The notes beneath the pieces were generated by a model. The model worked only from the letters and a program-made list of their open reading frames with translations, searched no databases and was not told the DNA's origin. This document shows, one piece after another, positions 25,210-29,152 of a stretch of DNA of 64,000 nt. Source of the DNA: Couchioplanes caeruleus (GTDB lineage: Bacteria > Actinomycetota > Actinomycetes > Mycobacteriales > Micromonosporaceae). The stretch's first letter is position 1, and each line of letters begins with the position of its first letter. The translations under genes were made by a program, and so were the position numbers. The stretch covers positions 6,014,001-6,078,000 of the forward strand of contig NZ_RJKL01000001.1 of the NCBI RefSeq assembly GCF_003751945.1, read 5' to 3'.

Positions 25210-28200
25210 ATGGGCGGCGCGCTGCCGGAGCGACTCCGGACGGCGTTCGAGCGCGGCGGTGAGATGGGACGCCGGATGCTCGCCCTGGACTGGGCGGACA
25301 CCCCGCTCGGCGTGCCCGCGCAGTGGCCCGCGGAGCTCGCCAGCGCCGTCGCCACGATGCTCGCCTCGAAGGCCCAGATCGTGCTGTTCTGGGGCGACGA
25401 CTACTGCGCGCTCTACAACGACGCGTACATCACCGCGATGGGGAGCAAGCATCCCGGCCACCTGGGCCGCCCCGGCCGGGAGATGTGGGCCGAGACCTGG
25501 TCGCTGCTGCAGGACCTGTTCGACGGGGTGACCGCGACCGACGAGGCGTACTACGCCGCCGACCATCCGTTCATGCTCGAACGGTACGGCTTCCTCGAGG
25601 AGACGTACTTCGACATCTCGTACGACCCGATCCGGCGCGACGACGGCACGGTGGGCGGGGTGTTCTGCATCGTCAGCGACACCACCCGCCGGGTGCTCGC
25701 GGACCGCCGGGTCCGTACGCTCAGCCGGCTCGGCTCCCTGCTGGCCGACTCGCCGGACCAGGGGGCGCTCGGCGCCCAGGCCGCGCGGGTCCTCGGCGAC
25801 AATCCCGGCGACGTGCCGTTCGCCCTGTTGTACCTGGACGGTCCCGCCGACGGCGACGGTCCGGCCCCTGCCGGGTCCTGCGGCGTCCCGGCGGCGTCCG
25901 GTCCGCTGCGCGCCGAGGCACGACAGATGGTCCAGGAGGTCATGCGCACGAACCGGCCCGCCTCGGTGCCGGTCGCGGACGTCACGGACGCGGCGCCGCC
26001 GTCGGCCGCGGACCAGGCCCTGGTGCTCCCGGTGGGTACGGGCGGCAGCGACGCCGGCGCACTGGTCGTCGGGGTCAGCCGCTACCTGGCCATGGACGAC
26101 GGCTACCGGGACTTCCTGGACCTGGCCACCACGCAGATCTCGCGCGCCGTGACGAATCTGCGGAGTTTCGAGCAGGAACGCCAGCGGGCCGCCGAGCTCG
26201 CCGCGCTGGACGCGGCGAAGACGAACTTCTTCTCGAACGTCAGCCACGAGTTCCGGACCCCGCTGACCCTGATCCTGGGCCCGCTGGAGGACCTCCTGAC
26301 GAGCCGGGGCATCGGCGACGATGAGCTGCGGGAGCGCCTGCTGCCGATGCAGCGCAACGGCCTGCGCCTGCTGAGGCTGGTCAACACCGTGCTCGACTTC
26401 TCGCGGCTGGAGTCGGGGCGGCTGCGCGCGGAGTACCGGCCCACCGATCTCGCCGACTACACCGCGCGGCTGGCCAGCACCTTCCGGTCGGCCGCCGAGC
26501 GGGCCGGGCTGGACCTGCAGGTCAACTGCCCGCCGCTGAGCGGCCCGGTGCACGTCGACCGCGAGATGTGGGAGAAGATCGTCTTCAATCTGCTCTCCAA
26601 CGCCGTCAAGTTCACCCGATCCGGCGGCATCACGGTCCGCCTCGGCGAACGGCTCGGCTGCGCGGTGCTCGAGGTCGCGGACACCGGCGTCGGCGTCAAC
26701 GCCGCCGACCAGCAGTTGCTCTTCGACCGTTTCCACCGGGTCACCGGCAGTTGGTCCCGCAGCCACGAGGGTACGGGCATCGGCCTGGCCCTGGTCCGCG
26801 AGCTGGCCGAGATGCACGGTGGCACGGCGAGCGCGCGCAGCGAACCCGGCGTCGGGAGCACGTTCACGGTGACCATCCCGCTCGGCACGGCACATCTGGC
26901 CGCCGACCGGATCCTCGACGTGGGCACCGCCGCCGTGCCCGACGAGCAGGCCCGCCTCTACGTCGAGGAGGCGCACTGGTGGCTCGGCGACACGGGATCG
27001 GAGCCGGGGGCCCGCTCGGCTCCGGGCGAGGTCGAGGACGCGCGGCGGGGCCGGGTGCTGCTGGTCGACGACAACGCCGACCTGCGGGATCACGTGGCGC
27101 GGCTGCTGCGGCCGCACTGGGAGGTCACGACCGCCGTCGACGGCCTCGAGGCCCTCGAACGGGCCGGCCGCGATCCGTTCGACCTGATCCTCACCGACGT
27201 GATGATGCCGCGGCTGGACGGGTTCGGCCTGATCAAGGCGTTGCGAGCCGACGAGCGTACGCGGGACGTCCCGATCGTCGTGCTCTCCGCCCGGGCCGGC
27301 GAGGAGTCCTCTGTCGAGGGTCTTTCCGTGGGCGCCGACGACTACCTGGTGAAACCGTTCTCGGCCCGCGATCTGACCGCTCGGGTACGGGCCAACCTGG
27401 AACTGGGACAGCTCCGCCGGCAGATCATCAGCCGGCTGCGCGGTCTGGTCGACGCGGCGGCGGCGGTCAACACCGTACGGACGACCGCCGAGGTGCTGGA
27501 GGTGGCCGCGCGGCACGTCGCGGCGATGACCTCGGCCCGCCGGGTCGTGCTGACCGCCACCGGAAATCGTGCGGAGGTGGTCGGCGACCTCACCGGCCCC
27601 CCGGAGCCCGACGCGGTCCTGCCGCTGCCGGACACCGCGGGTGCGACGCTCGGCGAGCTGAAGGTCTGGTCCGGTGCCGACGGCGCGCCCGAACCGGTGC
27701 TGCTGACCCAGCTCGCCCGCCTCGTCGGCCTGCGCCTGGAGAACGCCCGTCTCTACGAGGCCGAGCACCGGATCGCCAGCACGCTGCAGCACAGCCTGCT
27801 CCCGCAGTCGCTGCCGCGGGTGCCGGGCGCGATCGTGGCGAGCCGCTACCTGCCGGGGAGCAGCGAGGCCGAGGTCGGCGGCGACTGGTACGACGTCATC
27901 GTCGCCCCCGGCGACCGGCTCTTCCTCGTCATCGGTGACGTGGTCGGCAAGGGGGTGCAGGCCGCCGCGGGGATGGGGCAGCTCCGTAACGCGCTGCGGG
28001 CGTACATCCTCGAAGGTTTCGATTGCGGTGAGGCCTTGACGCGCCTCAACCGGCTGGTGGACAACCTGGGCCGGCGGCAGTTCGCGACGGTGGTGTGCGT
28101 GCGCTTCGATCCGCATACCCGGGAACTGCACTACTCCGCGGCGGGACACCCGTCACCGGTGCGCGCGGCCCCCGGCGAGGAGGGCGAGTTCCTCTACACC

Positions 28201-28848
28201 GCCGCGCTGGGACCGCCGATCGGTGCGCTGGCCGGCTCGGCGTATCCGACCCTGCGGACCGAGCTGTCAGCCGGCGACCGGCTGCTGCTCTACACCGACG
28301 GCCTGGTGGAGGATCGGCGGCAGGGCATCGACACCGGTCTCGCCGAGGTGTGCGCCGAGCTGGCCAAGCCGGCCGACCACGTCGAGGATCTGCTCGACAA
28401 CCTGCTGGCCAAGGCGGCCCGGCACACCCGCCGCGACGACATCGCGCTGCTCGCCCTGCAGGCCACCGAGCCGCGCGAGTTCGAGCTGCGGCTCCCGGCC
28501 GATCCGACTCGGCTCAGCGTGCTGCGCCGGCGGTTGGAGGACTTCCTCACCGGCAACGAGGTCCCGCAGAGCGACATCTTCGACCTGATGGTGGCGGTCT
28601 CGGAGGCCGCGGCGAACGCGATCGAGCACCCGGTCGACCCGGCCGAGCCGGTGATCGCGATCCGGGTCTCGCTCGACGAGGACGCGGTGACCGCGACCGT
28701 GCACGACACCGGCCGTTGGCGGCCGGCCACCGGTCCGAGCTTCCGCGGACGTGGGCTGGCTCTGATCGGTGCCCTGGCGGAGTTGTCGGTGATCCGCTCG
28801 GAGGCGGGCACCACGGTGACCCTGCGCCGGCCGCTCAGCCGCGCGTGA
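25210..28848 (+). CDS. Hybrid kinase-receiver-PP2C phosphatase-RsbW fusion protein
   Basis: A 1212-residue cytoplasmic signalling protein with at least seven modules. (1) PAS-like domain, about 30-155. (2) GAF-like region, about 160-320. (3) HisKA with His346 (SHEFRTP). (4) HATPase_c with Asn460 (NLLSNAVKFT), Asp491 (DTGVGV) and GTGIGLALV. (5) Receiver with Asp663 (LTDVMMPRLDG) and Lys715. (6) After a second GAF-like linker (about 735-860), a SpoIIE-type PP2C phosphatase with metal-site Asp892 (GGDWYD) and Asp910 (GDVVGKG). (7) RsbW-like anti-sigma kinase domain with Asn1136 (SEAAANAIEH) and GRGLALIGAL. GGAGG precedes the ATG by 5 nt. The convergent STAS gene encodes the natural substrate of modules 6 and 7. 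A phosphorelay thus seems wired to a partner switch in one chain. Confidence 0.93.
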   Translation: MGGALPERLRTAFERGGEMGRRMLALDWADTPLGVPAQWPAELASAVATMLASKAQIVLFWGDDYCALYNDAYITAMGSKHPGHLGRPGREMWAETWSLLQDLFDGVTATDEAYYAADHPFMLERYGFLEETYFDISYDPIRRDDGTVGGVFCIVSDTTRRVLADRRVRTLSRLGSLLADSPDQGALGAQAARVLGDNPGDVPFALLYLDGPADGDGPAPAGSCGVPAASGPLRAEARQMVQEVMRTNRPASVPVADVTDAAPPSAADQALVLPVGTGGSDAGALVVGVSRYLAMDDGYRDFLDLATTQISRAVTNLRSFEQERQRAAELAALDAAKTNFFSNVSHEFRTPLTLILGPLEDLLTSRGIGDDELRERLLPMQRNGLRLLRLVNTVLDFSRLESGRLRAEYRPTDLADYTARLASTFRSAAERAGLDLQVNCPPLSGPVHVDREMWEKIVFNLLSNAVKFTRSGGITVRLGERLGCAVLEVADTGVGVNAADQQLLFDRFHRVTGSWSRSHEGTGIGLALVRELAEMHGGTASARSEPGVGSTFTVTIPLGTAHLAADRILDVGTAAVPDEQARLYVEEAHWWLGDTGSEPGARSAPGEVEDARRGRVLLVDDNADLRDHVARLLRPHWEVTTAVDGLEALERAGRDPFDLILTDVMMPRLDGFGLIKALRADERTRDVPIVVLSARAGEESSVEGLSVGADDYLVKPFSARDLTARVRANLELGQLRRQIISRLRGLVDAAAAVNTVRTTAEVLEVAARHVAAMTSARRVVLTATGNRAEVVGDLTGPPEPDAVLPLPDTAGATLGELKVWSGADGAPEPVLLTQLARLVGLRLENARLYEAEHRIASTLQHSLLPQSLPRVPGAIVASRYLPGSSEAEVGGDWYDVIVAPGDRLFLVIGDVVGKGVQAAAGMGQLRNALRAYILEGFDCGEALTRLNRLVDNLGRRQFATVVCVRFDPHTRELHYSAAGHPSPVRAAPGEEGEFLYTAALGPPIGALAGSAYPTLRTELSAGDRLLLYTDGLVEDRRQGIDTGLAEVCAELAKPADHVEDLLDNLLAKAARHTRRDDIALLALQATEPREFELRLPADPTRLSVLRRRLEDFLTGNEVPQSDIFDLMVAVSEAAANAIEHPVDPAEPVIAIRVSLDEDAVTATVHDTGRWRPATGPSFRGRGLALIGALAELSVIRSEAGTTVTLRRPLSRA

Positions 28849-29152
28849 CCAGCCAGGGCTGGTCGCCCAGCCCGGAGATGTCGAGGACCCGGCGCACCTG
28901 CGGGGAGGGGATGACCTCGAGGGCGGCGGGGAAGCGCTCGGCGAGGCGGATCAGGGTGTGGATGGCCGCCGAGTCGAAGAAGGTGACGCTGCGCAGGTCG
29001 AGAGTGGCGGCGCGGGCGTCGTCGCCGGTCGCGGCCTGGAACATCCCGTCCGCCGTCGACATGTCGACCTCTCCGGTCACCACCACGGTGACCCGGTCGC
29101 CGGCCACCGATGTGGTGGCCGAGAAGATGTTCTCTGGCCCGTCTTGATCCAC
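28835..29152 (-). CDS. STAS-domain anti-anti-sigma factor
   Basis: A 105-residue single STAS domain. Strand and helix motifs are VVVTGEVDMST and TLDLRSVTFFDSAAI; the Ser in FFDSAAI is the position phosphorylated by RsbW-type kinases and dephosphorylated by SpoIIE-type phosphatases. I chose GTG at 29152, since codons between it and an ATG at 29194 (GTT GTT GCT CCT TGT AAT) lack the local GC3 bias. Its 3' end overlaps that of the giant fusion gene by 14 bp on the opposite strand. Probably the diffusible partner linking that protein to a sigma factor encoded elsewhere. Confidence 0.9.
   Translation of the reverse strand: MDQDGPENIFSATTSVAGDRVTVVVTGEVDMSTADGMFQAATGDDARAATLDLRSVTFFDSAAIHTLIRLAERFPAALEVIPSPQVRRVLDISGLGDQPWLVTRG

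Follow-up and report, generated by a model that had tools for sequence, protein, structure and literature searches.

The Fusion Gene and the Facing STAS Gene

The window, by which we mean the whole stretch of 64,000 nucleotides analysed here, spans positions 6,014,001 to 6,078,000 of contig C1 in the 8.43 Mb genome of Couchioplanes caeruleus. On its forward strand, from 25210 to 28848, lies a fusion gene whose product joins a predicted sensor histidine kinase and receiver to the two predicted opposing enzymes of a partner switch. The domain layout is PAS-GAF-HisKA-HATPase-REC-GAF-like-PP2C-RsbW-like. The reading frame is open from an ATG at 25210, or from an alternative GTG start at 25111, to the stop codon at 28848, and it encodes 1212 residues counted from the ATG. 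Among the matches listed, the best named proteins are from Couchioplanes and Actinoplanes. Convergent with the fusion gene, on the reverse strand, is a gene for a STAS protein (28835–29152); the ends of the two genes overlap by 14 bp (28835–28848).

Five domains of the fusion score above the curated Pfam cut-offs. HisKA (residues 336–403), HATPase_c (453–559), and Response_reg (616–727) are followed in the C-terminal half by SpoIIE (900–1084) and HATPase_c_2 (1095–1206). The N-terminal sensor domains give weaker Pfam signals, as follows. In a search with the whole chain, PAS_4 and GAF_2 both fall under their cut-offs; with the N-terminal piece alone, PAS_4 passes (24.6 against a threshold of 23.1) and GAF_2 fails (25.1 against 28.6). 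The predicted structure of residues 1–330, with a mean pLDDT of 93.5, displays PAS-like elements and then GAF-like ones, and residues 84–164 match the PAS domain of the mycobacterial protein Rv1364c (E 2.4e-6). We assign a PAS domain to residues 1–165 (25210–25704) and, with support from the model, a first GAF domain to residues 166–318 (25705–26163). The original prediction, made from this DNA alone, had placed the same domains in one chain of 1212 residues; the open reading frame, Pfam, and the N-terminal model agree with it, and the GAF-like segment between the receiver and PP2C is the element it missed.

Residues expected to be catalytic were examined in 29 aligned sequences (the query being one of them), taken from the 120 best matches listed. 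The HisKA dimerisation and phosphoacceptor domain (26215–26418) contains His346, and the HATPase_c domain of the histidine kinase (26566–26886) has N460 and N464, the D491-G493-G495 set, and the G521/G523 pair. The receiver (27055–27390) has the acceptor Asp663, the acidic pair D620/D621, and Lys715. The SpoIIE/RsbU-type PP2C domain (27907–28461), which is also supported by a structure match, has aspartates 892, 910, 1030, and 1077, the first of which sits just N-terminal of the SpoIIE Pfam match. The RsbW-like serine kinase or anti-sigma-type ATPase domain (28492–28827) has E1132, N1136, D1166, G1168, G1180, and G1182. His346, Asp663, Lys715, Asp892, Asp910, and Asn1136, the six residues singled out in the original prediction, are where it had located them and are unchanged in 29 of 29 sequences. 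The same holds for the listed residues of the kinase HATPase, for Asp1030 and Asp1077 of PP2C, and for the remaining five of the RsbW-like domain. With an H-box, N and G boxes, and a receiver that has its Asp and Lys, the fusion fits a hybrid histidine kinase by sequence. It also holds a receiver, a predicted PP2C phosphatase, and a predicted RsbW-type kinase domain in one chain, as do the HsbR/SypE-type regulators described below.

The segment between the receiver and PP2C (27421–27798) is flanked by long helices. In the model, which has a mean pLDDT of 87.3, the linker of about residues 719–863 consists of a small GAF-like α/β unit between a first helix of 36 residues and a second of 35. Because no Pfam family matches this linker, the label GAF-like is taken from the order of its elements. 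Fold matches of the C-terminal model mainly cover model residues 5–135 and 263–479, so that the linker is barely covered, and the best solved-structure match of the C-terminal half is the PP2C-RsbW part of Rv1364c.

The STAS gene has 105 codons and a GTG start at 29152. Its product scores above cut-off for Pfam STAS_2 and STAS and aligns with SpoIIAA across the phosphoserine motif; Ser61, in the sequence FFDSAAI, is the presumed phosphoacceptor. Asp60, Ser61, and Ala62 are unchanged in 120 of 120 STAS sequences (own included; the best 120 of 896). A convergent STAS gene with this motif had been predicted, and both the gene and the motif stand. A PHROGs search with the STAS protein gave no match. 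Just upstream of its start codon, at 29162–29190 on the reverse strand, a promoter-like pair, TTGTTG-17-TGTAAT, was noted by eye. The divergent neighbour on that side, given for context, is an M24 metallopeptidase gene, methionine aminopeptidase-like by Pfam (29241–30098, forward strand).

Linkage of the STAS Gene and Spread of the Architecture

The association of the two genes was followed through 300 genomes of the Micromonosporaceae, with E ≤ 1e-20 for the STAS orthologue and, for the fusion, a query of its C-terminal 474 residues at E ≤ 1e-90. The fusion protein is common in this family: its C-terminal part was found in 180 genomes and the STAS orthologue in 191, and a comparison of the two genome lists by eye shows that all 180 fusion-bearing genomes also carry the STAS orthologue. 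Wherever both genes could be placed, they are convergent (122 of 122 genomes); 113 of these pairs lie within 150 bp, and the remaining nine are 0.7–3.6 kb apart. A few fusion frames among the family matches, which were made with the C-terminal query only, are short, and some copies may be cut or broken. The 16 named Micromonosporaceae orthologues all have the STAS gene convergent and directly downstream, and 15 of them have the whole architecture in one frame, that of L067 being split over two. The link between fusion and STAS gene on which the original prediction was built is, therefore, far beyond chance in the family. Mere chance proximity of the STAS gene in the family was considered and is ruled out by the 122 convergent pairs. 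A genetically linked STAS protein with a conserved serine, its presumed phosphoacceptor, is a further feature shared with the HsbR/SypE type.

Outside the family, the architecture is widely distributed. A scan of genome contigs yielded at least 80 loci, and the counts that follow refer to the 80 listed. Profiles detect a histidine kinase-receiver block followed by PP2C and an RsbW-type domain in 29 of them, and Pfam agrees with the profile architecture in the four loci given (L063, L085, L124, and L092); the frame of another locus, L074, has no PAS match. Besides the 16 orthologues, the listed loci with the architecture come from Nocardioides, Dactylosporangium, Actinokineospora, Pseudonocardia, Actinomycetospora, and Mycobacterium kyorinense, among others, and it also occurs on Streptomyces and Rhodococcus plasmids. 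The other 51 loci have no PP2C; in 43 of these a second histidine kinase domain stands behind PAS-GAF-histidine kinase-receiver in the same frame, the hosts being cyanobacteria, proteobacteria, chloroflexi, planctomycetes, and others.

A class-wide search found a relative at E ≤ 1e-110 in 23 of 118 genomes, the own genome included. PP2C follows the kinase-receiver block in 24 of the 25 loci outside the own genome, and 11 have an RsbW-type domain within the fetched stretch. Of the other 14, twelve run off the end of the stretch; in L163 PP2C is present without an RsbW-type match, and L164 has neither. In a homologue search with the fusion itself, which returned 7750 proteins at E ≤ 1e-3, the best 120 of the 7750 (own included) were inspected, and all contain the five main Pfam domains. 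Database names, among the matches listed, mostly mention one domain only, e.g., "SpoIIE family protein phosphatase".

The original prediction regarded the added hybrid kinase as making the fusion unusual. Neither the five-domain architecture of all 120 best homologues nor the class-wide counts agree with this, and that part of its interpretation is not supported; the conserved motifs and the STAS linkage are the parts that hold. A rare or unique fusion was also considered as a description of the locus, and it is ruled out by the best 120 homologues, the genome-contig loci, and the 23 class genomes. No description of a HisKA-REC-PP2C-RsbW chain was found in the literature searched, most subscription papers being outside the reach of that search. 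The Actinoplanes missouriensis hybrid kinase HhkA was weighed as a possible characterised relative; the accessible sources gave no domain map, and identity was not assigned. Likewise, no architecture was found in such sources for SCO4009 and SCO7327 of Streptomyces coelicolor, hybrid kinases in cascades that are unclear according to a review, and they were not assigned either. The fusion is a variant of the Rv1364c/HsbR-like partner switches with a built-in hybrid kinase, widespread and apparently undescribed in the literature searched.

Relatives outside the family present the STAS partner in several layouts. In Pseudonocardia (L092) and Actinomycetospora (L124), STAS is fused to the C-terminus of the chain; these two have the entire set, from histidine kinase and receiver through PP2C and RsbW-type domain to STAS, in a single polypeptide. 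A STAS gene lies directly downstream on the same strand in Actinokineospora (L085), on an S. fungicidicus plasmid, and on an R. ruber plasmid, and a STAS-domain frame lies directly upstream on the same strand in L088, L152, and L165. An upstream divergent STAS gene is present in S. fungicidicus and also in Streptomyces sp. M54, there together with an ATP-binding protein. With a broader STAS profile, which was built partly from loci it then found, STAS was detected in five of the 13 non-orthologue PP2C loci, where it is adjacent in L085 and L088, fused in L092 and L124, and about 5 kb away in L074. The same profile found STAS in three of the 25 class-search loci (L145, L152, and L165), for which the flank is only about 1.5 kb. 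The STAS linkage holds throughout the orthologue family; outside it, the linkage is common but not universal. This recurrence of one partner in several layouts is the strongest evidence here for the STAS protein as the likely substrate.

A Proposed Route from Histidine Kinase to STAS Switch

The comparisons in this section draw on those parts of the cited accounts that were accessible. Rv1364c has the layout PAS-PP2C-RsbW-STAS, and its PAS and PP2C-RsbW parts are homologous to those of the fusion. The fusion differs by having GAF-HisKA-HATPase-REC-GAF-like between PAS and PP2C and by having STAS as a separate gene; because of these two differences we do not file it as an Rv1364c orthologue. 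HsbR of Pseudomonas (REC-PP2C-kinase), which acts on HsbA, resembles the fusion in its receiver, PP2C, serine kinase, and anti-anti-sigma partner. With the receiver phosphorylated, HsbR is reported to be a phosphatase, and with the receiver unphosphorylated, a kinase, on HsbA (PMC5812489). However, the input to HsbR comes from separate hybrid kinases by way of HptB, whereas the fusion has its hybrid kinase in the chain and no HPt domain was found there. SypE of Vibrio fischeri (RsbW-REC-PP2C) is likewise a single protein that both phosphorylates and dephosphorylates a STAS protein, SypA; it is a kinase by default and a phosphatase when its receiver is presumably phosphorylated (PMC3610818). 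Its domain order differs from that of the fusion, it works below a separate sensor kinase, and the output route of SypA is given as unknown in that account. In the mycobacterial REC-PP2C protein RsfR, in contrast, phosphorylation of Asp74 reduces phosphatase activity (PMC10950880). In the RsfS/RsfR-RsfB-SigF system of Mycobacterium smegmatis and in RsbK/RsbY of Bacillus cereus, a histidine kinase controls a REC-PP2C that acts on the anti-sigma antagonist (PMC10950880). Unlike in the fusion, these are separate proteins, and the accessible text mentions no RsbW domain on the phosphatase.

We propose that the fusion is probably a one-protein sensor and partner-switch controller, in which transfer from His346 to Asp663 within the chain sets the balance of PP2C and RsbW-like activities on Ser61 of the STAS protein. 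The basis is the set of domains, the conserved residues, the STAS linkage in the family with the other STAS layouts of some relatives, and the homology to Rv1364c at both ends; what we infer is every chemical step, the polarity of the receiver switch, and the sigma-factor output. A cytoplasmic signal sensed by the N-terminal PAS-GAF pair would set the autophosphorylation of His346, and the phosphoryl group would pass to the receiver's Asp663, either within one chain or across a dimer to the partner chain. Through the helices and the GAF-like segment, the receiver would then act on the PP2C domain. The balance between dephosphorylation by PP2C and phosphorylation by the RsbW-like domain would act on Ser61, and the phosphorylation state of the STAS protein would control a downstream target, most likely an anti-sigma factor and SigB-type sigma factor pair encoded elsewhere. 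A published general model has helical linkers transmitting from receiver, PAS, or GAF domains to PP2C dimers (PMC12143880), with which the long helices predicted on either side of the GAF-like unit are in keeping. Receiver gating of opposing kinase and phosphatase activities, as supposed in the original prediction, has precedents in HsbR and SypE. The switch may have either polarity, since the precedents disagree on its sign, HsbR and SypE standing against RsfR. The original prediction spoke of a phosphorelay, which is too loose a term: Pfam finds no HPt match in the 1212 residues, a separate HPt protein not having been sought, and since none was found in the chain a single His-to-Asp step is assumed. 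A strict multi-step phosphorelay was rejected on the same ground.

Several observations weigh against this route, and the first group concerns the substrate. In eleven of the 191 STAS-bearing family genomes the fusion query gave no match at E ≤ 1e-90 (G018, G052, G072, G088, G101, and G110, of one genus; G131, G221, G250, G260, and G286); therefore, the STAS protein can be kept, and may work, without the fusion. In three of the eleven (G101, G250, and G260), profiles find no PP2C or histidine kinase domain within about 14 kb of the STAS gene, and in one of these three, G101 (L137), the gene still adjoins an M24-peptidase-like open reading frame. With the broader profile, moreover, no STAS is present in the searched stretch of eight of the 13 non-orthologue loci (L063–L066, L068, L070, L075, and L102), and the STAS of L074 is the distant one noted above. 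It could be argued from these cases, and from the 15 STAS-type matches of the own genome at E ≤ 0.01 (window STAS included), that the adjacent STAS gene is a conserved neighbour and that the fusion acts on another STAS protein of the genome. We regard this as very unlikely given the constant convergence, the co-occurrence, and the other layouts, C-terminal fusion among them. A 25-residue remnant lies beside the STAS gene of G260 (L139 6711–6785) and resembles the extreme end of the fusion (query residues 1186–1210, 68% identity). Because of this remnant, we conclude that G260 once had the fusion and then lost it, which weighs for the proposed route.

A second group concerns the RsbW-like domain. 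The frame of L163 has PP2C but no RsbW-type match, and the relative on Mycobacterium gordonae plasmid p1 (L172) is, as annotated, without an RsbW-domain hit; tblastn on the latter reaches query residue 1209, in three pieces. A reference title cited in PMC10950880 refers to loss of kinase activity in Rv1364c, and by analogy the RsbW-like domain of the fusion may be no active kinase. Because of that title, its kinase activity is to be shown, not assumed.

A third point lies in the linker. The GAF-like segment could bring an input of its own, and the receiver then need not be the main gate. On this ground one may suppose two pathways glued together: the receiver would mainly tune the histidine kinase or drain its phosphate, the kinase's real target would be a separate response regulator, and PP2C-RsbW would be run by the GAF-like segment. 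A PAS domain occupies the linker position in several relatives (L085, L124, and L170–L173), which suits such an arrangement, as does the title of PMC4574943, in which the receiver of the hybrid kinase RsbK is called inhibitory. On the other side, L155 has a spacing of only about 50–80 residues between receiver and PP2C with no Pfam domain between, and both RsfR and HsbR, in which a receiver likewise precedes PP2C, are under receiver control according to their accounts (PMC10950880 and PMC5812489). Furthermore, the occurrence of PAS-GAF-histidine kinase-receiver before a second histidine kinase in 43 of 51 listed loci fits a receiver that addresses whatever follows it. Two independent pathways appear unlikely to us, and control of PP2C-RsbW by the receiver is retained.

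The last point is the output. No SigB/F/G-type match is present in the window, and no sigma factor is tied to the STAS gene by position. The partner switch may be real and its output no sigma factor, the STAS protein binding some other effector, as SypA does and HsbA does in part: the route by which SypE-SypA acts is given as unknown (PMC3610818), and a further proposed target of HsbA is the diguanylate cyclase HsbD (PMC5812489). The own genome, however, has four SigB/F/G-type sigma factors over cut-off, and on M. gordonae p1 the relative has a sigma gene of the SigB/SigF/SigG family two genes upstream. We find an output of the other kind rather unlikely, and a sigma factor remains our expectation for the fusion's STAS switch.

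It is tempting to propose, though tentatively, that PAS-GAF-histidine kinase-receiver is a mobile "driver cassette", which in actinobacteria was spliced into an Rv1364c-like PAS-PP2C-RsbW protein and elsewhere mostly precedes a second histidine kinase. If so, the fusion would take up a His-Asp signal and pass it on by adding phosphate to, or removing it from, a serine of a STAS switch. Two-component signalling and partner switching are as a rule connected by separate proteins, and the fusion holds the sensor, the receiver, and both predicted opposing enzymes; if the proposal is true, it would be a class-wide one-protein stress pathway bridging the two kinds of signalling without a separate response regulator. 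A single protein and its substrate of 105 residues would be enough to test receiver control of the kinase-to-phosphatase balance. The presence of the cassette before either a histidine kinase or PP2C-RsbW would also be a natural test of the proposal that sensor domains can be swapped between output enzymes by virtue of helical linkers (PMC12143880).

Other Features of the Genome and the Window

Elsewhere in the own genome, at about 4058566–4063280 of C1 (L141), a STAS gene, an RsbW/T-like ATPase gene, a HisKA-HATPase kinase gene, and a REC-PP2C gene stand in tandem on one strand. With this unfused row and the fusion of the window, the split and the fused form coexist in one genome. At C1 7991444–7992448, a SigB/F/G-type match and a STAS match were observed, each in an open frame of 446 codons; the arrangement resembles sigma-SsdA of Actinoplanes missouriensis, as far as the accessible part of its account (PMC10733313) allows comparison.

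Within the window, four other open reading frames gave no Pfam match. The segment 16001–18000 has a strong local GC skew of 0.248, around open reading frames that are unconvincing by eye. From 17976 to 25023, on the forward strand, a permease-like frame (by eye) is followed in a row by glutamine-synthetase-like, aldehyde dehydrogenase, and short-chain dehydrogenase genes and two C26 peptidase genes (Pfam), which together look like a gamma-glutamylation route for the breakdown of an amine or polyamine. Finally, an open reading frame of 874 codons on the reverse strand (43900–46524) has matches to a histidine kinase core and to two receivers, and it reads as a second hybrid kinase in the window.

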